64,000 nt of DNA from Pseudomonas taiwanensis (GTDB lineage Bacteria > Pseudomonadota > Gammaproteobacteria > Pseudomonadales > Pseudomonadaceae): positions 248,001-312,000 of the forward strand of contig NZ_QJRF01000076.1 in NCBI RefSeq assembly GCF_013393345.1, in the 5' to 3' direction. The position numbers and the translations under genes were made by a program. This document shows, in pieces, positions 12,468 to 47,017 of this stretch. The notes under the pieces are model-generated. The model was not told the origin of the DNA. It searched no databases and was given only the letters and a program-made list of their open reading frames with translations. Positions within the stretch are counted from its first letter, which is position 1; every line of letters starts with the position of its first letter.

Positions 12468-14147
12468 ATGAGCAACAAGAACAATGAAGACCTGCAGTGC
12501 CAAGCCTCGGATAACACCCTGAACCTCAATCCGGTGATAGGGATCCGCGGCAAGGACTTGCTGTCTTCAGCTCGGATGGTGCTGTTGCAGGCCATCAAGC
12601 AGCCTTTCCACAGTGCAAAACACGTCGCCCATTTCGGTCTGGAATTGAAGAACGTTCTGCTTGGCCAATCCGGTCTGCATCCGGAAGCCGATGACCGCCG
12701 CTTCAATGATCCGGCCTGGAGCCAGAACCCGCTCTACAGACGCTACCTGCAGACCTACCTCGCCTGGCGCAAGGAACTGCATAGCTGGATCTCTGAAAGC
12801 AACCTGTCGAGCCAGGACGCCAGCCGCGGACACTTCGTCATCAACCTGATGACCGAAGCCATGGCACCGACCAACAGCATGGCCAACCCGGCTGCGGTCA
12901 AGCGTTTCTTCGAGACCGGCGGGAAGAGCCTGCTGGATGGCCTCTCCCATCTGGCCAAGGACATGGTGAACAACGGCGGCATGCCCAGCCAGGTGAACAT
13001 GGATGCCTTCGAGGTCGGCCAGAACCTCGCCACCACCGAAGGCGCTGTGGTCTTCCGCAACGACGTGCTGGAGCTGATCCAGTACAAGCCCATCACTGAA
13101 AGCGTGCATGAACGTCCGCTGCTGGTGGTACCGCCGCAGATCAACAAGTTCTACGTCTTCGACCTGTCGCCGGAGAAAAGCCTGGCGCGCTTCAGCCTGC
13201 GCAACGGCCTGCAGACCTTTATCGTCAGCTGGCGCAACCCGACCAAGGCGCAGCGCGAATGGGGCCTGTCCACCTACATCGAGGCCCTCAAGGAAACCAT
13301 CGATGTCATCCTGAAGATCACCGGAGCCAAGGATCTCAACATCCTCGGCGCCTGCTCCGGCGGCATCACCACTGTCGCCCTGCTCGGCCACTACCAGGCC
13401 ACCGGCGAGAACAAGGTCCACGCCTTCACCCAGATGGTCAGCGTGCTCGACTTCAACCTCGACACCCAGGTCGCCCTGTTCGCCGATGAGCAGACGCTGG
13501 AGGCCGCCAAGCGCCGCTCGTACCAGGCTGGCGTGCTGGAAGGCAAGGACATGGCCAAGGTCTTCGCCTGGATGCGTCCCAACGACCTGATCTGGAACTA
13601 CTGGGTCAACAACTACCTGCTGGGCAACGAACCGCCGGCCTTCGACATCCTCTACTGGAACAACGACACCACGCGCCTGCCCGCCGCACTGCACGGTGAG
13701 CTCGTGGAGATGTTCAAGACCAACCCGCTGACCCGTACCAATGCCCTTGAAGTCTGCGGCACTCCAATCGACCTCAAGCAGGTCACCTGCGACTTCTATT
13801 GCGTAGCCGGTACCACCGACCACATCACCCCCTGGGAAGCCTGCTACCGCTCGGCACGGCTGCTGGGTGGCAAGTGTGAGTTCGTGCTGTCCAACAGCGG
13901 CCACATCCAGAGCATCCTCAACCCGCCTGGCAACCCCAAGGCGCGTTTCTCCACCAGCAGCGACATGCCGGCAGACCCGAAAGTCTGGCTGGAGAACGCC
14001 ACCAAGCACGCCGACTCCTGGTGGCTGCATTGGCAGCAGTGGATCGGCGAGCGCTCCGGCAAAACCAAGAAAGCCAACTTCACCCTGGGCAACAAGGCCT
14101 TCCCGGCCGGTGAAGCTGCGCCTGGCACCTATGTGCACGAGCGATGA
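12468..14147 (+). CDS. phaC1: Class II poly(3-hydroxyalkanoate) synthase 1
   Basis: Polymerises medium-chain (R)-3-hydroxyacyl-CoAs into PHA at the granule surface. The 559-aa product has the lipase-like box GACSGG with catalytic Cys296, and Asp451 and His479 complete the triad at exactly the positions of the P. aeruginosa enzyme. The conserved REWGLSTYIEAL and PAFDILYWNND segments are present. The ATG has a GGAG ribosome site 9 nt upstream. It heads the pha cluster phaC1-phaZ-phaC2-phaD and shares its synthase fold with PhaC2 downstream. Confidence 0.97.
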   Translation: MSNKNNEDLQCQASDNTLNLNPVIGIRGKDLLSSARMVLLQAIKQPFHSAKHVAHFGLELKNVLLGQSGLHPEADDRRFNDPAWSQNPLYRRYLQTYLAWRKELHSWISESNLSSQDASRGHFVINLMTEAMAPTNSMANPAAVKRFFETGGKSLLDGLSHLAKDMVNNGGMPSQVNMDAFEVGQNLATTEGAVVFRNDVLELIQYKPITESVHERPLLVVPPQINKFYVFDLSPEKSLARFSLRNGLQTFIVSWRNPTKAQREWGLSTYIEALKETIDVILKITGAKDLNILGACSGGITTVALLGHYQATGENKVHAFTQMVSVLDFNLDTQVALFADEQTLEAAKRRSYQAGVLEGKDMAKVFAWMRPNDLIWNYWVNNYLLGNEPPAFDILYWNNDTTRLPAALHGELVEMFKTNPLTRTNALEVCGTPIDLKQVTCDFYCVAGTTDHITPWEACYRSARLLGGKCEFVLSNSGHIQSILNPPGNPKARFSTSSDMPADPKVWLENATKHADSWWLHWQQWIGERSGKTKKANFTLGNKAFPAGEAAPGTYVHER

Positions 14148-34328: not shown

Positions 34329-35132
34329 TCAGCGGCCGTAGCGCTGCTGCCCCCACGCCAGCATCGCCTGCAACAGCTTCTCCAGCACCGCCTGAGTCGG
34401 CACCGCGAGGTCCTCGCGGTAGTCGAAGGGCACCTGCTCATCCATGTAGGTGCACTGCGCGAGCTCCAGCTGCACGGCATGGATGTGCTGGTCGGGCTGG
34501 CCGTAGTGACGGGTGATGTGACCACCCTTGAAGCGGCCATTGAGCACGTGGCTGTAGTCCTGCGCATCTGCGCAAACCGCCACCAGGGCATCGGCCAGAC
34601 CCGAATCGCAACTGGCGCCGGCGTTGGTGCCGAGGTTGAAGTCCGGTAGGCGGCCATCGAACAGGCGGGGGACAAAGGAGCGGATGGAGTGGGCGTCGAA
34701 CAGCATGGCGTAGCCGAATTCGTCCTTCATCCGCGCCAGCTCATCGCTGATGGTCTGATGATAGGGCGTCCAGATGTCCGCCAGGTAGCGCGCCCGCTCC
34801 GCCGCCGAGGGCTCCTCGCCTTCGTGGTAGAGGGGGTCGCCATCGAACAGGGTCGACGGGTACAGGCCGGTGGTGGCGGTGGCATAGAGCGGCTTGTCGT
34901 CGGCCGGGCGATTGAGGTCGATGACGTAGCGCGAGTACTGCGCCGCCAGGGTGCTCGCCCCAAGTTCGCCGGCAAAATCGTAAAGGCGCGGGATGTGCCA
35001 GTCGGTGTCGGTGAGGTCCCAGCCGGCCTCCACCATCCCGGCTTCCACCGCCGGCGTCAGCAGGGTGCCGGGATGCGGCATGCTGATCAGCAACGGCACG
35101 TTGCCGCGGCTGAATGAGAGAACGTTATCCAC
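34329..35132 (-). CDS. hutG: N-formylglutamate deformylase
   Basis: Last step of the five-step histidine pathway: N-formylglutamate to glutamate plus formate. The 267-aa product has the N-formylglutamate amidohydrolase segments [14 protein letters not shown], the [17 protein letters not shown] substrate motif, LFDAHSIRS and [13 protein letters not shown]. It is the promoter-distal gene of the hut operon read leftwards and overlaps hutI by 8 nt. With HutF present, it defines the formylglutamate (Pseudomonas-type) route. Confidence 0.95.
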
Positions 35133-36333
35133 AGTCGATCTCCTGTCCGTGTCGAATCACCCGCTTGGGCAGGTCGCCGCCCAGCCAATAGGCGAGTTCC
35201 GCCGGGCGCTGGATGTCCCAGGCGATGAAGTCGGCCACCTTGCCGTTCTCCAGGCTGCCATGGCTGTCGGCCAGGCCCAGGGCCTTCGCGGCGTGCAATG
35301 TGGCGCCGGCCAGCGCTTCCTCCGGGGTCAGGCGGAAGGAGGTGCAGGCCATGTTCAGCATCATCCGCAGTGACAGCGCCGGGGACGTACCGGGGTTGAG
35401 ATCGGTCGACACCGCCATCGCCACGCCGTGCTTGCGCAGGGCATCGATGGGCGGCAGCTGGGTTTCCCGCAGCAGGAAGAAGGCGCCCGGTAGCAGCACG
35501 GCAACGGTGCCGGCCTCGGCCATGGCGATGGCGTCGTCCTCGGTCATGTATTCCAGGTGGTCCGCCGACAGCGCCTGATAGCGTGCGGCGAGGGCGGAAC
35601 CATGCAGGGAGGACAACTGCTCGGCATGCAGTTTCACCGGCAAACCGAGCGTCTTCGCGACCTTGAAGATGCGTTCCACCTGGGCCGGAGAGAAGGCCAG
35701 GTGTTCGCAGAAGGCGTCCACCGCATCCACCAGCCCCTCATCGGCGAGCGCCGGCAGCATCTCGTTGCAGATATGGTCGATGTAATCATCGGCGCGGCCG
35801 GCGTACTCCGGCGGCAGGGCGTGGGCGGCCAGGCAGGTGGCGCGCACGGTGATCGGCAAGGTCTCGCCCAGGCGCCGCGCGACCCGCAGCATCTTGCGTT
35901 CGCTGGCCAGGTCCAGGCCGTAGCCGGACTTCACTTCCAGGGTGGTCACGCCATCGCGCAGCAACTGGCGGGCGCGGCGGGTGGCGCTCTCCAGCAGCTC
36001 GTCCTCGCTGGCCTCGCGGGTGGCGCGCACGGTGCTGGCAATACCGCCGCCCTGGGCGGCGATCTCGGCGTAGCTGACGCCTTCCAGACGCTGTTCGAAC
36101 TCGCGGCTGCGGTCACCGCCGAACACCAGGTGCGTATGGCAGTCGACCAGTCCCGGGGTCAGCCAGGCGCCACCGAGATCGACTTCGACATCGTAGGGAA
36201 TGGCGGGCAGTTCAGCGCGCGGGCCGATCCACTCGATGCGCCCGGCGTAGGTCAGCAGCACCGCGTCTTCGATGATCGAGTACTTGCCGCCTCGCATGGT
36301 GGCGGCGTGGCAGTTGTGCCAGAGGTGTTTCAT
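35125..36333 (-). CDS. hutI: Imidazolonepropionase
   Basis: Third step: hydrolyses 4-imidazolone-5-propionate to N-formimino-L-glutamate. The 402-aa amidohydrolase has the metal motif [10 protein letters not shown], the family substrate region [15 protein letters not shown], and [10 protein letters not shown] near the end. The ATG at 36333 ([10 protein letters not shown]) overlaps the stop of the upstream ammonia-lyase paralogue by ATGA. Longer in-frame reading upstream is inside that gene and is rejected. Confidence 0.96.
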
Positions 36334-37862
36334 TGCAGGCCTCCGGTGCGAACGGAAATCCCTTCCAGCGCGGCACCGTCGCGCAGCAGGTCGGTGGCAC
36401 GGGCGATATCCGGTGCCAGCCAACGGTCCTGGTCATAAGCCGGCACCTGTTCGCGCAGGGTTTCCCACGCGGCCGATGTGCCGACACCGAAGCCCCTGGG
36501 CTTGTGGAACTCGAAAGCCTGGGCGGCAAACAGATATTCGATGGCAAGGATACGGCGGCAGTTCTCCACCGCCTTGCCCAGCTTGAGGGCGGCACTGGTG
36601 CCGAGGCTCAGGTGGTCTTCCTGCAAGCCGGAAGTGACGAAGTTATCCACAACGGCCGGCTGCGCCAGCTGGCGGTTCTCTCCGACCAGGGCGGCGGCGA
36701 CGTACTGGGCGATCATCATTCCCGAGTTGACCCCGGGCTGGCTCACCAGGAAGGCTGGCAGGCCGCTGACCAGCGGGTTGACCAGGCGATCCAGACGGCG
36801 CTCGGCGATGCCGCCAAGCTCGGCCACGGCGATGGCCAGCAGGTCGGCTGCCATGGCCACCGATTCACCGTGGGGGTTGGCCTGGGAAACGATCTTGTAG
36901 CTGTCCGGGGTCCCCAGAAGCAGCGGGTTGTCGTTGGCCGATGCCAGTTCGGTATCCACCTGCTTCGCGGCGTGGGCCAGCTGATCACGGCAGGCGCCAT
37001 GCACCTGCGGGATGGAGCGGATGCTCAATGCGTCCTGGGTACGGATGCCCTGGCTGGCGGCAATCACCTCACTACCGGCCAACAGAGCCAGCAGGTTGGC
37101 GCCCACCGCCTGCACGCCGGGGTACGGCTTGAGTGCGATGATGTCCGGGTCGAAAGCGGCGATCTGCCCGCGCAGGGCTTCAAAACTCATGGCGCCGATC
37201 ACATCGGCCCAGCGCATCAGCCGCTCGGCGTCGTCCAGGGCGAGGCAGGTCAGGCCGGTCATACACGGCAGACCGTTGACCAGGCAGAGCCCGTCCTTGG
37301 CGCCCAGTTTCACGGGTTCGAGGCCCTCGGCGGCCAGCGCTTCGGCAGCGGATACCACGCGACCGCGATAGCTCACTTCGCCGACGCCGAGCAGGGCGAT
37401 GCCGACGTGGGCCATGTGGGTGAGATAGCCCACCGACCCTTGGGACGGCACCTGCGGGGTGATGCCACGCGCCAGCAGCGCCAGCAGCGCTTCCACCACC
37501 TGCCGCTGCAGGCCGGAGCGGCCGTGGCTGTAGTTGGCGATGGCGCAGCAGATGATGGCGCGGGTCTGCTCGTCGGCCAGCGCGGGGCCAACACCGCAGG
37601 CGTGGCTGAGCAGGGTGTTGCGGGACATCGTGGCGAACTGCTCGGCGGTCAGCACGACCTCGCTGAGTGCGCCGAGACCGGTGCTGATCCCGTAGGCGCG
37701 CTCGCCCCGCTCGACGATGCGTTCGACGATGCCGCGGGCATTGTCGATGCGCGCCCAGGCCGACGGCGTCAACTCCAGGCGCGCGCCGTGGCGAGCCACG
37801 GCCACCACCTGGCGCCAGTTCAACGGCGAATCACCCAGCAGGACTTTCTCGGGTAACGACAT
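36330..37862 (-). CDS. HAL/PAL-family ammonia-lyase paralogue lacking the MIO triad
   Basis: A 510-aa protein homologous along its whole length to HutH (40802-42331) but with a changed active site. Where HutH reads [15 protein letters not shown] this protein reads [11 protein letters not shown] (residues 142-152): the Ala-Ser-Gly that cyclises to the MIO electrophile is exactly missing. Tyr280 of HutH (QDPYSLR) is Leu279 (QDALSIR) and Phe329 (GNFHAEP) is Pro330 (ANPHGES). Tyr57, His87, Asn196, Arg282 and Glu415 keep their HutH equivalents (Y53, H83, N195, R283, E414). The frame is intact, codon use is normal, and it sits between hutV (11-nt gap) and hutI (4-nt overlap). It corresponds in position to the first of two hutH genes (hutH1) in other pseudomonads. 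Ordinary lyase chemistry looks impossible. Confidence 0.9.
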
Positions 37863-37873
37863 TCAGCTGTTCC

Positions 37874-38704
37874 TTACAGATTGGCCACGCGGCGCTGGAC
37901 GAAGCGATCGACGTAATCGTCGGCCGGCTGGTGGAGGATCTCTTTCGGCGTGCCGACCTGGATCAGTTGGCCGTCCTTGAGAATGGCGATGCGGTTGCCG
38001 ATGCGCACGGCCTCGTCCAGGTCATGGGTGATGAAGACGATGGTTTTCTGCAGGGTCTTCTGCAGCTCCAGCAGTTGTTCCTGCATGTCGGCACGAATCA
38101 GCGGATCGAGGGCGCTGAAGGCTTCGTCCATGAGGATGATGTCGGTGTCCGAGGCCAGTGCACGGGCCAGGCCGACGCGCTGGCGCATGCCGCCGGAAAG
38201 CTGGTGCGGGAAGGACTTCTCGTAGCCCTTCAGGCCCACGGTGGTGATCCAGTGCTGGGCGCGCTCCAGGCAGTATTCCTTGGTCTCGCCGCGCACTTTG
38301 AGGCCGTAGGCGACGTTGTCGATCACCGACTTGTGCGGCAGCAGGCCGAAGCTCTGGAACACCATGCTGATCTTCTTGCGACGGAATTCGCGCAGCTCTT
38401 CCATGTCGTAGCGCAGGATGTCTTCGCCATCGACCAGGATCTGCCCGCTGGTGGGGTCGATCAGGCGATTGAAATGGCGCACCAGGGTGGATTTGCCGGA
38501 ACCGGACAGGCCCATGATCACGAAGATCTCGCCCGCGCCGATGGACAGCGACAGGTCGTTGACCCCGACCACGCAGCCGGTGTTGGACAGCACGTCCGCC
38601 TTGCTCTTGCCCTGCTGGATCAGCGCCAGGGCTTCGTCGGCGCGCTGGCCGAAGATCTTGAATACGTTCTTGACGACGATCTTGCTCATGTTCTCGCCAC
38701 TCAT
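37874..38704 (-). CDS. hutV: Histidine/quaternary-amine-type ABC importer ATPase HutV
   Basis: A 276-aa ProV-like ATPase: N-terminal FKIFGQRADEALALIQQG extension typical of the betaine/choline group, Walker A GLSGSGKST, signature LSGGMRQR, Walker B ILMDEAFSALDP, H-loop ITHDLDEA. It lacks the C-terminal CBS domains of ProV. The ATG at 38704 overlaps the hutW stop (ATGA); MSKIVVKN at 38689 with GGCGAG upstream is an alternative start. Place in the hut operon argues for histidine uptake. Confidence 0.9.
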   Translation of the reverse strand: MSGENMSKIVVKNVFKIFGQRADEALALIQQGKSKADVLSNTGCVVGVNDLSLSIGAGEIFVIMGLSGSGKSTLVRHFNRLIDPTSGQILVDGEDILRYDMEELREFRRKKISMVFQSFGLLPHKSVIDNVAYGLKVRGETKEYCLERAQHWITTVGLKGYEKSFPHQLSGGMRQRVGLARALASDTDIILMDEAFSALDPLIRADMQEQLLELQKTLQKTIVFITHDLDEAVRIGNRIAILKDGQLIQVGTPKEILHQPADDYVDRFVQRRVANL

Positions 38705-39552
38705 TTGCTGGCTGCGTGCCGCGAACGGCCGTAAGCCTGGGTGATGCGGTCGAAGACCACGGCCAGGATGACGATGGCCAGGCCCGCTTCGAGGCCCTTG
38801 CCGACGTTGAGGGTCTGGATGCCCACCAGGACGTCCTCGCCGAGACCACGGGCGCCGATCATGGAAGCGATCACCACCATCGACAGGGCCATCATGGTGG
38901 TCTGGTTGATGCCAGCCATGATGCTCGGCATCGCCAGCGGCAACTGCACGCCGAACAGCTGCTGCCAGCGGTTGGCGCCGAAGGCGTTGATGGCTTCCAT
39001 CACCTCGCCGTCAACCTGGCGGATGCCGAGGTCGGTGAGGCGGATCAGCGGCGGCGCGGCGTAGATCACGGTGGCGAAGATGGCCGGCACCTTGCCCAGG
39101 CCGAAGAGCATCAGCACCGGGATCAGGTACACGAAGCTGGGCATGGTCTGCATGATGTCCAGCAGTGGCATCAGCACCGCACGCAAACGGTCGCTGCGGG
39201 CCGCAAGGATGCCCAGCGGAATGCCGATCAGCACCGAGATGAAAGTGGCCACCAGCATCAGTGCCACGGTCTGCATCAGTTTGTCCCAGAGCCCCACGGC
39301 GCCCACGAGGAACAGCAGGCCGGTGATCACCACCGTCGGCAGGATGCGCCGTGTGGCGTGCCAGGAAATCCCGGCGATCACAATCAACACCAGCCACCAG
39401 GGCGTGGCGCGGAGGATGCCTTCCAGATAGACGATGGCCCAGAGCAGGGTGTCGGAGATGTGGCGGAATACATCGCCGTAGTTGGTCACCAGGCTGTCTA
39501 CCCAGCCATTGACCCAGTCAGCGATGGAGAAGGTGAAGCGTTCGGGGAACAT
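38701..39552 (-). CDS. hutW: Histidine-type ABC importer permease HutW
   Basis: A 283-aa ProW-like permease with about six membrane helices; the core runs from LMQTVALMLVATFISVLIGIP to the C-terminus, with the EAA-type loop EVMEAINAFGANRWQQLFGVQLPLAMPSIM. The N-terminal ~30 residues are amphipathic. It lies between hutX and hutV; a hairpin (39577-39601) separates it from hutX. Confidence 0.91.
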   Translation of the reverse strand: MFPERFTFSIADWVNGWVDSLVTNYGDVFRHISDTLLWAIVYLEGILRATPWWLVLIVIAGISWHATRRILPTVVITGLLFLVGAVGLWDKLMQTVALMLVATFISVLIGIPLGILAARSDRLRAVLMPLLDIMQTMPSFVYLIPVLMLFGLGKVPAIFATVIYAAPPLIRLTDLGIRQVDGEVMEAINAFGANRWQQLFGVQLPLAMPSIMAGINQTTMMALSMVVIASMIGARGLGEDVLVGIQTLNVGKGLEAGLAIVILAVVFDRITQAYGRSRHAASK

Positions 39553-39624: not shown

Positions 39625-40593
39625 TCAGAGGGCGGCTTCGATCTTCTTCGCCGCATCCTCGCTGACCCAGGCGTGCCACACCTCCGGGTGCTCCTTGAGG
39701 AAAACCTTGGCCAGGTCGGCCGAGTCCATCTTCTCCTTGGCCATCTTCGCCAGGTTCTGGTTCAGCAGGTCGATCGGCAGGTTGACCTTCTTCAGCACGT
39801 CCACCAGTTCCGGGGCCTCGTCATGGAAGGTCTTGGACAGGCCGACCTGGATGGTCACGCTCTTGTCCACGCCGGGCTTCTCCTCCAGCTTGACCAGGTC
39901 TGCCTGGCCCATCAGCGGCGTCGGCGACCAGTAATAGAAAAGAATAGGCTCGCCACGGCGATAGCTCGACAACACGGCCGCATCCAGGGCCGGGCCGGTG
40001 CCGGGGCGGAAGTTGGTGAACTTCCCTTCCAGGCCGTAGCTCTTCAGCATTTCGCTGTTGTCCAGCTCGCAGGTCCAGCCGGCTGGGCAGTTGTAGAAGC
40101 GGCCCTTGCCCGGCTCTTCCGGGTCGCGGAAGACTTCGGCGTACTGGCCCAGGTCGGCAATGGACTTGAGCTGCGGCGCCTTGGCCTCGATGCCGCGCTT
40201 GGCATCGCCCTCGATCACATAACGCGGCACGTACCAGCCTTCGGTAGCGCCGACGATCGGTGCACCCACGCCCACCACCTTGCCGGCGGACGCGGCCTTG
40301 TTCCAGGCGTCGCTACGGCCGATCCATTCCTCGGCGAAGATCTGGATGTCGTTGTTGCCCAGGGCCTGCTCCATGGTGATGGAGTTACCCGGCAGGCTGT
40401 CGGTCTCGCAGCCGTAACCGTTCTTCAGCACCAGTTGCAGCACGTCGGTGAGCAACATGCCGCTTTCCCAGTTGAGCCCGGCGAACTTCACCGGTTTGCC
40501 GGATTCACACCAGCCCGCCGCCTGGGCGGAAGCCGCCCCGGCCAGCAGACCCGCTGCACACATGAGGCCCAACACTCGCTTCTTGAATTGCAT
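39625..40593 (-). CDS. hutX: Histidine-type ABC importer substrate-binding protein HutX
   Basis: A 322-aa OpuAC/ProX-type periplasmic protein with signal peptide MQFKKRVLGLMCAAGLLAGA(ASAQA). Characteristic segments are FAGLNWESGMLLTDVLQ, LPGNSITMEQAL, ILFYYWSPTPLMG. A close paralogue is encoded at 46016-47017. It sits after hutH in the operon; the 208-bp gap upstream contains two small hairpins (40648-40664 and 40670-40684) and no clear promoter. Confidence 0.91.
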   Translation of the reverse strand: MQFKKRVLGLMCAAGLLAGAASAQAAGWCESGKPVKFAGLNWESGMLLTDVLQLVLKNGYGCETDSLPGNSITMEQALGNNDIQIFAEEWIGRSDAWNKAASAGKVVGVGAPIVGATEGWYVPRYVIEGDAKRGIEAKAPQLKSIADLGQYAEVFRDPEEPGKGRFYNCPAGWTCELDNSEMLKSYGLEGKFTNFRPGTGPALDAAVLSSYRRGEPILFYYWSPTPLMGQADLVKLEEKPGVDKSVTIQVGLSKTFHDEAPELVDVLKKVNLPIDLLNQNLAKMAKEKMDSADLAKVFLKEHPEVWHAWVSEDAAKKIEAAL

Positions 40594-40801: not shown

Positions 40802-42331
40802 TCACAGGCTCGGCAGCAGCTTTGCCGGGACCAGCGCGTTCAGGCAGCCGCTGGCCAGCAGGTCACTTGCCGTTTCGATGTCCGGGGCGAAGAAGCGGTC
40901 CTCCTGGTAGTAGGAGACCTTGGCGCGCAGCAGGCCGCGGGCCTCTTCGAGCTTCGGCGAGCTCTTCAGGCCGGTGCGGAAATCCAGGCCCTGGCAGGCG
41001 CCCAGCCATTCGATGGCGAGGATGCCGCGCACGTTTTCGGCCATGGCCCAGAGACGCTTGCCGGCGTTCGGCGCCATGGACACGTGGTCTTCCTGGTTGG
41101 CCGAAGTCGGCAGGCTGTCGACGCTGGCCGGGTGGGCCAGGGCCTTGTTGTCGCTGGCCAGGGCGGCGGCGGTGACCTGGGCGATCATGAAGCCGGAGTT
41201 GACCCCGCCGTTTTCCACCAGGAAGGGCGGCAGCTGGGACATGTGCATGTCCATCATCAGCGAGATACGACGCTCGGACAGCGAGCCGATCTCCGCAATG
41301 GCCAGCGCCAGGTTGTCAGCGGCCATGGCCACCGGCTCGGCGTGGAAGTTGCCGCCGGAGATCACATCGCCCTCTTCGGCGAACACCAGCGGGTTGTCCG
41401 AGACCGCGTTGGATTCGATCTCCAGCACCTCGGCAGCCTGGCGCAACTGGGTCAGGCAGGCACCCATGACTTGCGGCTGGCAGCGCAGGGAGTACGGGTC
41501 CTGCACCTTGTCGCACTTCTCATGGGAGCGGGCAATTTCGCTGCTGGCGGTGAGCAGTTCACGGTAGGCGGCCGCCACGTCGATCTGGCCGCGCTGGCCA
41601 CGGGCGGCATGGATGCGCGCATCGAAGGGGGCACGGGAACCGAGCATGGCTTCTACGCTGAGACCGCCGCAGACAGTGGCGCCGGCGAACAGATCCTCGG
41701 CCTCGAACAGGCCGCGCAGGGCATAGGCAGTGGAGACCTGGGTGCCGTTGAGCAGGGCCAGGCCCTCCTTGGCGGCCAGGGTCAGCGGCTCAAGCCCGGC
41801 AATGGCCAGGGCCTCGGTGGCCGGCAGCCACTGGCCCTTGTGACGCGCCTTGCTTTCGCCGAGCAGCAGCAGGGACATATGCGCCAAGGGAGCGAGGTCA
41901 CCGGAAGCACCTACCGAGCCCTTCAGCGGGATATGCGGGTAGACCTCGGCATTGATCAGGTCGATCAGCGCATCGATCACCTTGCGACGGATGCCGGAGA
42001 AGCCACGCGCCAGGCTGTTCACCTTGAGCAGCATGATCAAGCGCACCATGGCGTCGTCCAGCGCTTCGCCAACACCGGCGGCGTGGGACAGCACCAGCGA
42101 ACGCTGCAGCTTTTCCAGGTCGGCCGGAGCGATGCGGGTCGAGGCCAGCAGGCCGAAGCCGGTGTTGATGCCGTAGGCGGTACGGCCTTCGGAAACGATG
42201 CTCTCGACGCAGGCGACGCTGGCGTCGATGGCCTTGCCGGCGCTGGCGTCCAGGGTCAGCCGCAGGGGCTGCTGGTACACCTTGCGCAGGTCGGCCAGGG
42301 TCAGTTGGCCGGGTTTCAGATTCATATTCAT
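40802..42331 (-). CDS. hutH: Histidine ammonia-lyase
   Basis: First step of histidine degradation: non-oxidative deamination to urocanate. The 509-aa product has all active-site residues at the P. putida numbering: Tyr53, His83, the MIO triad Ala142-Ser143-Gly144 ([12 protein letters not shown]), Asn195, Tyr280, Arg283, Phe329 and Glu414. The ATG at 42331 (MNMNLKPG) has AAGGAG 8 nt upstream; a second ATG two codons on is less well spaced. This is the enzyme expected to do the catalysis, in contrast to the MIO-less paralogue in the same operon. Confidence 0.97.
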
Positions 42332-42441: not shown

Positions 42442-43887
42442 TCAGGCGCCGTTGGCGGCCTTGCTCAGGTTCATGGAATCCGCCGGCAGCACCATGTGCT
42501 CCGGCACCGACCGGGCGCTGCGGCGAGCGACCACGTAGTAGAGGACGCTGGGTACGACCAGGCCGATGATCCAGGAGATATCCACCCCGCCCAGGTGCGC
42601 AACCATCGGTCCGGTGTAGAGCTTGGTGGAGATGAAGGGCATCTGCACCAGCACGCCGATGGTGTAGACGATGATGCCCGGCATGTTCCAGCGGCCGTAG
42701 CGGCCATTGGGGTCGGACAGCGCCGGTACGTCGTAGCGCTCCTTGGTGATGAAGTAGTAGTCCACCAGGTTCACCGCGCTCCACGGCGTGAAGAAGGCCA
42801 GCAGGAACAGGATGAAGGACTTGAACGCACCCAGGAACGAATGCTGGCCGAGCAGCGCAACCAGGGTGGAGGCGCCCACGATGCCAATCACGAAGCACAG
42901 GCGCTGGGCGCGCGACACTTCGATGTGCCCACGGAAGCCACTGATGATGGTGGCGATGCACATGAAGCTGCCGTAGGAGTTCAGGGTGGAGATGGTCACT
43001 TTGCCGAAGGCGATGCTGAAGTACAGCAGCGCGGCGACGGCGCCGGTGCTGCCCAGACCGACGATGTAGGCCACCTCGCGGCCGGCAAACTGACCATTGG
43101 CCATGGCGGCGGCGAACACCCCGAGCACCATGGCGACCTGAGCGCCGATCACCGAGCCGAGGCCGGCGGCGAGGAAGGTCTTCACGGACGAGGTACCACT
43201 GGGCAGGTAGCGCGAGTAGTCGGCCACGTAGGGGCCGTAGGCGATCTGCCAGGAAGCGGCGAGAGACACCGCGAGCAGGAAGCTGGACCAGCTGAAGTGG
43301 CGGTTCTGCAGCAGCTCGCTGATGTCGCTAAGCACCATGACGCGACTGAACAGGTAGATGAACGCGATGATGCCGAGCACGCTGGCGATGCGGCCGATGT
43401 AGTGGATCACGCGGTAGCCGAACGCGGTGGCCAGGACGATCACGGCGGCGAAGATAAGGATGCCGGCGCTGTCACTGACACTCAGCAGTTGGCCGATGGC
43501 CTGACCGGAAAGCACGGTGCCGGTAGCGGTGAAGCCGAGGTACATCAGGCACACCAGGACGATCGGGATGGCCGCACCATACACACCGAACTGCACCCGG
43601 CTGGAAATCATCTGCGGCAGGCCGAGCTTGGGCCCCTGGGCTGCGTGCAGCGCCATCACCGCGCCGCCGAAGAGTTGGCCGATGAACAGGCCGATCAGCG
43701 ACCAGAACACGTCGCCGCCCAGCACCACGGCAAGGGCGCCGGTGACGATGGCGGTGATCTGCAGGTTGGCGCCCAGCCATAAAGTGAACTGGCTGTAGAG
43801 GCGACCGTGGCGCTCGGCCTCGGGAATGTAATCAATCGAGCGGCGTTCGATCAGGGGCTTGGCCGAAGGCTCGTGGGACTGGGTCAT
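42442..43887 (-). CDS. NCS1-family (cytosine/purine/allantoin-type) permease
   Basis: A 481-aa membrane protein with about 12 helices and the NCS1 signatures PEAERHGRLYSQFTLWLGANLQ at the N-terminus and ASWQIAYGPYVADYSRYLP in the middle. NCS1 proteins import cytosine, allantoin, hydantoins and similar rings. Its position between hutU and hutH suggests uptake of histidine, urocanate or another imidazole, but the sequence does not decide this. Confidence 0.88.
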   Translation of the reverse strand: MTQSHEPSAKPLIERRSIDYIPEAERHGRLYSQFTLWLGANLQITAIVTGALAVVLGGDVFWSLIGLFIGQLFGGAVMALHAAQGPKLGLPQMISSRVQFGVYGAAIPIVLVCLMYLGFTATGTVLSGQAIGQLLSVSDSAGILIFAAVIVLATAFGYRVIHYIGRIASVLGIIAFIYLFSRVMVLSDISELLQNRHFSWSSFLLAVSLAASWQIAYGPYVADYSRYLPSGTSSVKTFLAAGLGSVIGAQVAMVLGVFAAAMANGQFAGREVAYIVGLGSTGAVAALLYFSIAFGKVTISTLNSYGSFMCIATIISGFRGHIEVSRAQRLCFVIGIVGASTLVALLGQHSFLGAFKSFILFLLAFFTPWSAVNLVDYYFITKERYDVPALSDPNGRYGRWNMPGIIVYTIGVLVQMPFISTKLYTGPMVAHLGGVDISWIIGLVVPSVLYYVVARRSARSVPEHMVLPADSMNLSKAANGA

Positions 43888-44054: not shown

Positions 44055-45725
44055 TCAGCGTTTGCCGGTGATCATCGGCAGGTTCAGGCCCTGTTCCTTG
44101 GCGCAGTCGATGGCGATCTGGTAACCGGCATCGGCATGGCGCATGACGCCGGTGCCTGGGTCGTTGGTCAGCACGCGGGCGATGCGCGCGGCGGCTTCAT
44201 CAGTGCCGTCGCAGACGATCACCATGCCCGAGTGCTGGGAGAAGCCCATGCCCACGCCGCCGCCATGGTGCAGGGACACCCAGGTGGCGCCGCTGGCGGT
44301 GTTCAGCAGGGCATTGAGCAGCGGCCAGTCGGAAACGGCGTCGGAACCGTCCTGCATGGCTTCGGTTTCGCGGTTCGGGCTGGAGACCGAGCCGGAGTCC
44401 AGATGGTCGCGGCCGATGACGATCGGGGCGGACAGTTCGCCGCTGCGGACCATTTCGTTGAAGGCCAGGCCGAGCTTGGCGCGCAGGCCCAGGCCAACCC
44501 AGCAGATACGTGCCGGCAGGCCCTGGAAGCTGATGCGCTCGCGGGCCATGTCCAGCCAGCGGTGCAGGTGGGCGTCGTCCGGGATCAGTTCCTTGACCTT
44601 GGCGTCGGTCTTGTAGATGTCCTGCGGATCACCGGACAGGGCAGCCCAGCGGAACGGACCGATGCCACGGCAGAACAGCGGACGGATGTAGGCCGGGACG
44701 AAGCCGGGGAAGTCGAAGGCGTTGGCCACGCCCTCTTCCTTGGCCATCTGGCGGATGTTGTTGCCGTAGTCGAAGGTCGGAACGCCGGCCTTCTGGAAAT
44801 CCAGCATGGCCTTCACGTGCACAGCCATGGACTGCTTGGCAGCCTTGACCACGGCAGCCGGCTCGGTCTGCGCGCGGTCGCGGTACTGTTCCCAGGTCCA
44901 GCCGATCGGCAGGTAGCCATTGAGCGGGTCGTGGGCGCTGGTCTGGTCGGTGACCATGTCCGGACGCACGCCACGGCGCACCAGTTCCGGCAGGATTTCA
45001 GCGGCGTTGCCCAGCAGGGCGATGGAGATGGCCTTGCCTTCGCCGGTGTACTTGGCGATGCGCGCCAGGGCGTCGTCCAGGTCGGTGGCCTGCTCGTCGA
45101 CGTAGCGGCTGCGCAGGCGGAAGTCGATGCTGGTCTGCTGGCATTCGATATTCAGCGAGCAGGCGCCGGCCAGGGTCGCGGCCAGGGGCTGGGCGCCGCC
45201 CATGCCGCCGAGGCCGGCGGTCAGGACCCACTTGCCGGTCAGGTTGCCGTTGTAGTGCTGGCGGCCTGCCTCGACGAAGGTTTCATAGGTGCCCTGGACG
45301 ATGCCCTGGCTACCGATGTAGATCCAGCTGCCGGCGGTCATCTGGCCGTACATGGCCAGACCCTTGGCATCCAGTTCGTTGAAGTGTTCCCAGGTCGCCC
45401 AATGGGGTACCAGGTTGGAGTTGGCGATCAGCACGCGCGGGGCGTTGGCGTGGGTCTTGAAGACGCCGACCGGCTTGCCGGATTGCACCAGCAGGGTCTC
45501 GTCTTCGTTCAGCTCTTTCAGGGTCTCGACGATCTTGTCGTAGCACTCCCAGTTGCGCGCGGCACGGCCGATGCCGCCATACACCACCAGTTCCTTCGGG
45601 TTCTCCGCCACCTCGGGGTCGAGGTTGTTCATCAGCATGCGCAGCGGCGCTTCGGTCAGCCAGCTCTTGGCGTTCAGCTTGTTGCCACGCGGGGCGCGGA
45701 TTTCGGTGTCACGGAATTTGGTCAT
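44055..45725 (-). CDS. hutU: Urocanate hydratase
   Basis: Second step: converts urocanate to imidazolone propionate using tightly bound NAD as electrophile. The 556-aa product shows [16 protein letters not shown], the NAD-binding [16 protein letters not shown], the catalytic-region [17 protein letters not shown] and [15 protein letters not shown]. The start at 45725 ([14 protein letters not shown]) follows an AGGAG site; in-frame extension upstream is through the operator region and is rejected. Two HutC-type palindromes lie 86-200 bp upstream. It is the first gene of the leftward catabolic operon. Confidence 0.97.
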
Positions 45726-45810: not shown

Positions 45811-45824
45811 CTTGTACATACAAG
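45811..45824. promoter_or_regulatory. HutC operator upstream of hutU, site 1
   Basis: CTTGTACATACAAG is a 6-bp-armed palindrome (CTTGTA..TACAAG; CTTGTATGTACAAG on the other strand), matching the hut operator sequence described in Pseudomonas. It is 86 bp before the hutU start. Confidence 0.75.
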
Positions 45825-46015: not shown

Positions 46016-47017
46016 CTACTTCAAGGAGGCATCGATACGCTGCGCGACGTCCGCCGGCACCCAGCGTGACCAGACATCGCGATGCTGGCGATAGAAGTCG
46101 ACGGCCACGGGCGCAGCCTCGGCATGCTCCTCCGCCATGCGCGCCAGAATGCCGTTGAAGAGGGGCAGAGGGATTTCCAGCTTGGCGAAGGCGTCCACCA
46201 GGGGCTGTGCCTTTTCATGCAACTCGCGGGATACACCGATGGAGATCTTCGCCGGCAGCGAGCGGGTGCCAATGGGCTTGGGATTGTTCGGGTCGATCAG
46301 GGTTTCCCAGGCCTTCTGGTCGAAAGGCGGCTCCTCTAGCTGCACCAGTTGATAGCGACCCATGAGCGGCGTCGGCGACCAGTAGTAGAAGAGAATCGGC
46401 TGGCGCTGGCGGATCGCCGAGGTAATGGCCGCATCCAGCGCCGGTCCGGTTCCGGTGCGGAAGTTCACATAGCTGTCTTCCAGGCCGTAGGCCTTCAGCT
46501 TCTGGGTGTTGACCCCTTCGCAGGTCCAGCCTGTGGGGCAGTTGTAGAAGCGCCCCTTGCCGGGCGACTCCGGGTCCTTGAACAGGGCCTTGAAGCGCGG
46601 CAGGTCGCTCACCGAACGCAGGTCGGCAGCGGGGGCGCCCTCCCCTTTCACCAGGTAATCCGGCACCCACCAACCTTCGGTGGCGCCCTTGACCGGCTCG
46701 CCCACGGCGAACACTTCGCCCGCCGCCTCGGCCTTGCGCCACAACTCGCTGCGTCCGGCCCACTGCTCGGCGATCACCTGGATATCGTTCTGCCGCAGGG
46801 CGTTCTCCATGGTCAGCGTGTTACCCGGCAGCACGTCGGTCTTGCAGCCGTAACCCTTCTCCAGCAGGTAGCGCAGCACTTCGGTGGTGAACATGCCGCT
46901 TTCCCAGTTCAACCCGGCCAGCACCACGGGTTTGGGATAAGGACACTCGGCGGCGTTGGCTGAGGCGGGCAGCACCAGCGACAGGGCGATGGCAGCGAGG
47001 ACGCTGTGGCGTGGCAT
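46016..47017 (-). CDS. HutX-like ABC substrate-binding protein (orphan paralogue)
   Basis: A 333-aa OpuAC/ProX-type binding protein with signal peptide (MPRHSVLAAIALSLVLPASANA). It aligns with HutX throughout (LAGLNWESGMFTTEVL, LPGNTLTMENAL, ILFYYWSPTPLMG) but has about 11 more residues in total, including a PFDQKAWETLIDPNNPKPIG insert. No permease or ATPase gene is beside it, so it may feed HutWV with a second ligand such as urocanate. The ATG at 47017 has a GGAG site. It lies between hutU and hutD, with a REP doublet behind its start region. Confidence 0.88.
   Translation of the reverse strand: MPRHSVLAAIALSLVLPASANAAECPYPKPVVLAGLNWESGMFTTEVLRYLLEKGYGCKTDVLPGNTLTMENALRQNDIQVIAEQWAGRSELWRKAEAAGEVFAVGEPVKGATEGWWVPDYLVKGEGAPAADLRSVSDLPRFKALFKDPESPGKGRFYNCPTGWTCEGVNTQKLKAYGLEDSYVNFRTGTGPALDAAITSAIRQRQPILFYYWSPTPLMGRYQLVQLEEPPFDQKAWETLIDPNNPKPIGTRSLPAKISIGVSRELHEKAQPLVDAFAKLEIPLPLFNGILARMAEEHAEAAPVAVDFYRQHRDVWSRWVPADVAQRIDASLK

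Follow-up and report, generated by a model that had tools for sequence, protein, structure and literature searches.

In histidine ammonia-lyase (HutH) the amine of histidine, a poor leaving group, is activated by the electrophile 4-methylideneimidazole-5-one (MIO), formed from an Ala-Ser-Gly triplet. Trimethylamine-lyases without MIO are already known in the form of ergothionase, and the available text of a 2026 paper (PMC13405746) describes this enzyme as lacking MIO and converting ergothioneine into trimethylamine and thiourocanic acid. The BLAST comparison in that text limits ergothionase to a few genera, with divergent or poorly annotated homologues falling outside its coverage. We have analysed a stretch of 64,000 nucleotides from Pseudomonas taiwanensis (assembly GCF_013393345.1, contig NZ_QJRF01000076.1, positions 248,001 to 312,000), called the window from here on and used for all coordinates given without a locus name. 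Its hut operon carries, besides hutH, a second gene of the same family (36330..37862, minus strand), of the hutH1 type. The 510-aa product, referred to below as the lyase, has the ergothionase of Treponema denticola (PDB 6s7j) as a solved homologue (E 3.6e-63). Judging from the comparisons described here, it is probably a trimethylamine-lyase that has the aromatic ammonia-lyase fold but works independently of MIO, and it would convert histidine betaine (hercynine) into urocanate.

Active site of the lyase

The gene is an intact open reading frame (ORF) from ATG to TGA, and Pfam Lyase_aromatic (PF00221) covers the product along the full profile (1-466 of 466, E 6.1e-162). With 40% identity to the HutH of the window, the lyase scores slightly below the cut-off of the NCBIfam hutH equivalog TIGR01225 (535.4 bits for a cut-off of 539.15) and passes that of the broader subfamily NF006871 (553.3 vs 524). 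In a pairwise alignment it is three residues shorter than HutH at the MIO motif, GSVG-Y-L vs GSVG-ASGD-L; the Ala-Ser-Gly of MIO is gone and Tyr146 is found instead (GSVGYL, residues 142-147, 37422..37439, minus strand). The first-pass annotation of this DNA had described the change as the exact loss of Ala-Ser-Gly with no other gap. The three missing residues were recovered here, but a loss of Ala-Ser-Gly plus a change of Asp to Tyr and a replacement of ASGD by Tyr fit equally well, and the alignment is free of other gaps only locally, with small ones along its full length such as two residues ahead of RTQD.

The residue survey covered 204 distinct sequences out of 209, namely 141 MIO-forming enzymes, 58 of the deletion type and five of the ergothionase group. 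MIO-forming enzymes were scored as [AS][SCT]GD, both here and in the locus counts given below, although a listing of 80 loci used a cruder rule that labelled SSGD, SCGD and ACGD rows as MIO-less. Sequences were assigned to the deletion class by the presence of this Tyr, and a three-residue deletion with any residue other than Tyr was found in none of the 204 sequences. At position 280 (HutH numbering) Tyr is present in 141/141 MIO-formers, while Leu is present in 56/58 of the deletion type, 5/5 of the ergothionase group and 0/141 MIO-formers; the equivalent in the lyase is Leu279 (codon at 37026..37028, minus strand like all codons below). Phe329 is equally constant among MIO-formers (141/141) and is found in 2/58 of the deletion type and 4/5 of the ergothionase group, the lyase having Pro330 (36873..36875). 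The lyase residues Tyr57, His87, Asn196, Gln276, Arg282 and Glu415 correspond to HutH Tyr53, His83, Asn195, Gln277, Arg283 and Glu414, among which we take Tyr53 to be the general base and His83 and Glu414 to form the imidazole pocket. Tyr53 is present in all 204 sequences (codon of Tyr57, 37692..37694), and the equivalents of His83 (codon of His87, 37602..37604), Gln277, Arg283 and Glu414 (codon of Glu415, 36618..36620) are conserved in 58/58 of the deletion type, as is Gln413 (Gln414 in the lyase), with Asn195 kept in 56/58. Both replacements, and the retention of Tyr53, His83, Asn195, Arg283 and Glu414, had been pointed out in the first pass and held in the alignment and in the survey. The two exceptions at position 280 come from a third MIO-less type with the motif GSVGYLGPEGH (L020:1456-3015 and L124:8958-10502), which retains Tyr280 and Phe329 and adjoins a His-type ATP-binding cassette (ABC) transporter; its substrate may differ from that of the window lyase.

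Ergothionase (6s7j/6s7q) and the lyase have in common the aromatic-lyase family, the absence of MIO, Leu at 280 and the same Tyr53, His83, Gln277, Arg283 and Glu414 equivalents. The ergothionase motif, SSIG-EG-DITTLSH, is one residue shorter than that of HutH, whereas the lyase is three residues shorter and has the Tyr; ergothionase also has Ser at 195, Ile at 413 and Phe329, where the lyase has Asn196, Gln414 and Pro330. Identity of the lyase with ergothionase was dropped because of these differences in motif and site residues and, as far as sequence can tell, the lyase is near ergothionase but not of the same kind. HutH (EC 4.3.1.3; PDB 1b8f) shares with the lyase the family and the imidazole- and carboxylate-binding residues, but in the lyase the MIO residues, Tyr280 and Phe329 are missing. 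The loss of MIO appears to have taken two sequence forms or more, ASGD to Y on one side and ASG to EG, AA, QA or CA on the other. A group with a one-residue deletion (L075:5980-7482, L123:5013-6551, L074:5980-7587 and L076:6004-7578), which has the motifs GSIGAAD, GSLGAAD, GSIGCAD and GSVGQAD, groups with ergothionase. OpuAC-type transporter genes adjoin three of these four lyases, the exception being L076, and L123 carries both lyase kinds; two HutC operators (6639 and 6741) lie immediately 5' of its one-residue-deletion lyase.

Conservation and phylogenetic position

The lyase was found in 15 of the 18 genomes of the genus (81-97% identity, the window's own excepted), and the GSVGYL-type motif was identical in all 15, which shows that the deletion is not an isolated artefact. 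The ratio of nonsynonymous to synonymous substitution rates (dN/dS) had a median of 0.128 (range 0.04-0.32, 104 usable of 105 pairs), vs 0.102 for HutH (14 genes, 91 pairs). An 11-nt gap separates hutV from the lyase gene and a 4-nt ATGA overlap joins it to hutI; its GC content at third codon positions is 0.84 vs 0.86-0.88 in hutH, hutI, hutV and hutX. All this agrees with the earlier proposal that the ORF is maintained and not decaying. HutX1, the substrate-binding protein encoded in the same operon, was found (at least 86% identity) in the same 15 genomes and is missing, like the lyase, from G001, G004 and G009. In two of these, G001 and G004, the labelled genes of the stretch include hutU, hutH, hutI and hutG but not HutXWV.

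At the level of the phylum, 398 genomes were searched with a profile. Among the 30 best loci plus L124, for which the motif was checked, matches of the deletion type had E <1e-200, whereas the best-scoring MIO enzyme reached 5.6e-168. Relatives of the lyase were found in Erwinia, Burkholderia, Rhizobium, Sinorhizobium, Klebsiella and Priestia plasmids, and further in genomes of Pseudomonas, Polaromonas, Prodigiosinella, Pantoea and Paenibacillus; one search retained 80 loci, of which 11 are of the deletion type. The Klebsiella form (L064:7989-9518) matches 203 of 72,556 plasmid records (191 Klebsiella, 10 Raoultella and 2 Escherichia), 163 of them covering 80% of the gene or more, and also 2 of 5,426 E. 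coli genomes.

A tree of 51 rows (a subset of 87) was obtained after removing the diagnostic columns; ALT_L074 was among the rows left out, for its long branch. The lyase belongs to a clade with 100/100 support whose 13 rows are exclusively deletion-type, and ergothionase to a separate 100/100 clade; a node with 97/75 support unites the lyase clade with the ergothionase group and the L064/L068 pair. The term HutH paralogue used in the first pass was loose, the lyase being in a well-supported clade apart from pseudomonad HutH. The deletion is shared by a clade, a check that the first pass had asked for. A recent duplication of HutH was dropped in view of the position of the lyase outside the HutH clade. 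A single clade of all the MIO-less enzymes was not rejected by the approximately unbiased (AU) test on the 51-row subset (p-AU 0.271).

Genomic neighbourhood and transport

In the window the operon has the order hutU - NCS1 permease - hutH - hutX - hutW - hutV - MIO-less lyase - hutI - hutG. We have compared the transporters encoded within 5 kb at 45 deletion-type loci and 81 MIO-only loci, looking for the OpuAC, BCCT and HisJ (SBP_bac_3) types. A transporter was present at 42/45 deletion-type loci (21 OpuAC or BCCT, 20 HisJ-type and one with both). OpuAC or BCCT genes were found at 22/45 deletion-type loci and 1/81 MIO-only loci (Fisher p 3.6e-11, the loci being related), and HisJ-type genes at 2/81 of the latter; the 58 MIO-only loci with 5 kb upstream had one OpuAC/BCCT and one HisJ. 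A rule by which every MIO-less enzyme adjoins a betaine transporter failed, with OpuAC/BCCT at 22/45 loci only. The ProXWV type was found in the window and at L109-L111, L113-L117, L130, L131, L174 and L176-L180, that is, in pseudomonads and another class (L130, L131). The OpuC type was found in Klebsiella (L064), Rhizobium sp. BT04 (L068) and Paenibacillus (L139), and BCCT transporters at L112 and L123 (Pfam E 9.1e-117 and 1.7e-119), of the same taxonomic order as the window genus. His-type transporters came from enterobacteria, Burkholderia, Polaromonas, rhizobia and one Pseudomonas.

HutX1 (39625..40593, minus strand) is an OpuAC-type substrate-binding protein (Pfam OpuAC E 2.9e-63). In an alignment to PDB 7yle, with the pairs counted by hand, its W42, W90, W173 and W222 coincide with the four Trp of the onium cage in RnDmpX, which binds dimethylsulfoniopropionate (DMSP), and the DmpX pocket residues Tyr200 and Glu113 are retained as well; the cage residues were taken from the available text of PMC10030565. 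The four Trp and the pocket Tyr and Glu are shared by HutX1, DmpX and ProX-type betaine-binding proteins. A second HutX-like gene (46313-46978), upstream of hutU, has the same four-Trp cage. The cage was tried as a mark of the lyase-linked HutX and failed, the second HutX having it in 15/16 rows (the 16th is a 22% relative).

At six loci (L064, L066, L123, L128, L139 and L166) hutU and the lyase occur together and the fetched stretch contains no MIO-type enzyme, L064 and L139 being the clearest cases. The Klebsiella plasmid L064 carries an OpuC-type ABC transporter, the lyase, hutU, hutI and a hutC-like repressor, with no HutH in the fetched stretch, and a further gene, similar to the neighbour of pseudomonad hutC, was provisionally taken for hutF. 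Paenibacillus L139 has the OpuC-type ABC transporter, the lyase, hutU and hutI, and likewise no HutH in the fetched stretch. In Rhizobium sp. BT04 (L068:6962-11424) the genes after the lyase encode a CoA-transferase, a 3-hydroxyacyl-CoA dehydrogenase and an enoyl-CoA hydratase; since they stand in place of hutU, the acrylate product may be degraded along a different route in this strain.

An exact HutC operator was located near the first transporter ORF in 7 of 23 transporter-lyase clusters, with a simulated chance of at most 0.0125 per cluster. The positive clusters belong to Erwinia, Klebsiella, Pseudomonas, Prodigiosinella and Pantoea, plus two more of the same class. The negative ones are all seven of the named alpha- and betaproteobacterial clusters, Paenibacillus and eight others including three of the window's family (L120, L124 and L135), L120 having a HutC site at 13682, beyond the tested stretch. 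HutC responds to urocanate, according to the available text of PMC12977541, from which the consensus TGTA-N2-TACA was taken; in the window it is found 5' of hutU (45813..45822, no strand assigned).

The remaining genes of the operon, all on the minus strand, have standard assignments. HutV (37874..38704) is a ProV-type ATPase (NCBIfam proV 364.8 bits, above cut-off) and HutW (38701..39552) a ProW/ChoW-type permease (NCBIfam match under curated cut-offs). HutH (40802..42331) is a MIO-type histidine ammonia-lyase with GSVGASGD (NCBIfam hutH 737.8 bits), and the imidazolonepropionase HutI (35125..36333) and the N-formylglutamate deformylase HutG (34329..35132) pass their NCBIfam cut-offs. An NCS1-type permease (42442..43887, NCBIfam match under curated cut-offs) adjoins the gene of urocanate hydratase HutU (44055..45725), named by its likeness to the annotated urocanate hydratase of L064. 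In the matching position P. fluorescens SBW25 has hutTu, a urocanate transporter (available text of the review PMC8871633). Loci L114-L117 and L176-L179 have the SBW25 order of hutU, NCS1, HutX, HutW, HutV, MIO-less lyase and hutH, and because of this common gene order hutH1 of SBW25 is very probably the orthologue of the lyase. The window differs from it by having hutH before hutX. Iron limitation is reported to up-regulate hutU and two neighbouring copies of hutH in Pseudomonas sp. J380 (available text of PMC8069873); one of these copies may be the MIO-less gene.

Predicted reaction and its alternatives

In the proposed reaction the lyase would eliminate trimethylamine from hercynine, and the urocanate formed would then be degraded by HutU, HutI, HutF and HutG. 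Since the quaternary trimethylammonium group already leaves well, MIO would be dispensable. Tyr57 would act as the base and abstract the beta proton, the imidazole would be bound by His87 and Glu415, and the carboxylate by Arg282. The space left by MIO, Tyr280 and Phe329 would accommodate N(CH3)3, for which Tyr146 is a candidate cation-pi partner. Asn195 and Gln413 are kept in the lyase type and are Ser and Ile in ergothionase, which we take to favour an unsubstituted imidazole over the thione. The betaine would be imported by the adjoining HutXWV; the HutXWV of Sinorhizobium transports betaine. The betaine-family transporters at the lyase loci speak for such a substrate, and urocanate as the product is favoured by the six loci that have hutU but no MIO lyase in the stretch retrieved and by the HutC operators.

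Several observations weigh against the hercynine reading. Ergothionase has Phe329 and a deletion different from that of the lyase. In the tree the L066/L139 and L020/L124 pairs fall outside the main lyase clade, and the term MIO-less may, on sequence grounds, cover more than one kind of enzyme. His-type transporters are found at 21/45 deletion-type loci (one with both kinds) and neither kind at three (L066, L127 and L129), and the comparison with MIO-only loci is favourable to the deletion type, from which most of the transporter references came, and rests on loci that are not independent. The operator was not found in the tested stretch of 16 of the 23 clusters, and some of the seven positive ones are close relatives. 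PA5093 is presumably a HutH-like gene and the orthologue of the lyase. If this and its tag are right, a role restricted to betaine conflicts with the defect described in the available text of PMC12772324, where "hutG (PA5093)" is among the genes whose deletion impairs growth on histidine and urocanate. According to the review PMC8871633 (available text), histidine uptake in SBW25 involves HutXWV. The genome without lyase G009 keeps HutV, HutW and a second HutX, and since the second HutX has the cage too, the cage is not specific to the partner of the lyase. Nor does it identify the HutX1 ligand, as far as the comparison goes, because the DmpX cage binds sulfonium and hardly betaine, choline or carnitine (available text of PMC10030565).

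Among the alternatives, it is rather unlikely that the lyase is ergothionase proper, removing trimethylamine from ergothioneine (or its sulfonate) to give thiourocanate or a relative. Ergothionase is the sole characterised MIO-less relative met in the analysis, it shares Leu280, and its group joins the lyase clade at 97/75, but the residues at 195 and 413 and the deletion differ, HutI and HutG of the operon pass the NCBIfam cut-offs as ordinary hut enzymes, and sites for the urocanate sensor HutC in 7/23 clusters speak against it.

It is unlikely, too, that the lyase acts on some other histidine with an N-alkyl group, such as mono- or dimethylhistidine or a histidine opine, or that its substrate varies by subclade. 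By established chemistry a secondary or tertiary amine leaves poorly unless MIO activates it, and three kinds of betaine transporter recur at the lyase loci. On its side are the 21/45 loci with His-type transporters and the local sequence, which is SEAHAVAP or SQAHAVGA in the rhizobial and Burkholderia rows vs SQANPHGE or SQANPHGQ in pseudomonads. In addition, a gene of the SolA type (N-methyl-L-tryptophan oxidase family) is found 3' of the lyase in L063 (10489-11616), L071 and L121, hinting at N-methylated amino acids; this gene counts in favour of the hercynine reading as well.

The first-pass annotation had offered two readings of its own, a pseudoenzyme that regulates or scaffolds HutH and a chemistry not described for the family. 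The former is unlikely, and for a catalytically dead partner of HutH in mixed tetramers the probability is very low. MIO and Tyr280 are lost and the lyase adjoins hutH in many pseudomonads, but no MIO lyase was found in the fetched stretch of 22/45 deletion-type loci (HutH may lie elsewhere in those genomes, and L119, one of the 22, has a cut end of HutH at the stretch edge), six of them with hutU. HutH-free clusters such as L064 and L139, the substrate-binding residues conserved in 58/58, the clade of its own and the transporter that usually accompanies the gene point in the same direction. The latter reading came near the mark, although the chemistry is not wholly new, ergothionase being reported as MIO-less and trimethylamine-releasing in the available text of PMC13405746. 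A decaying or mis-sequenced copy of hutH, which the loss of the cofactor-forming residues might suggest, is refuted by the open frames in 15/18 genomes, the dN/dS of 0.13 and the recurrence of the deletion across 58 distinct sequences.

Literature searches naming hercynine or histidine betaine listed no paper in which hercynine is cleaved to urocanate, and gave no match for hercynine, urocanate and trimethylamine together, most subscription journals being outside their coverage. A hutH1 without MIO, its broad clade and a hercynine entry to the hut pathway were likewise found in none of the literature searched, mostly open papers.

With regard to the whole family, we see about an even chance that the MIO-free lyases form a second entry to the hut pathway, from hercynine to urocanate and trimethylamine, recruiting whichever transporter is available. 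This entry would span gamma-, beta- and alphaproteobacteria, Paenibacillus, Priestia and Klebsiella plasmids, in members often annotated as histidine ammonia-lyase. If the hercynine reading is true, bacteria would have a pathway for hercynine catabolism that also releases trimethylamine, and neither this route nor this trimethylamine source was met in the literature searched. The family also offers a natural experiment, with residue 280 going from Tyr to Leu as MIO goes, and because one fold exists with and without the electrophile, the relation between leaving-group ability and the need for the cofactor is directly testable in it.

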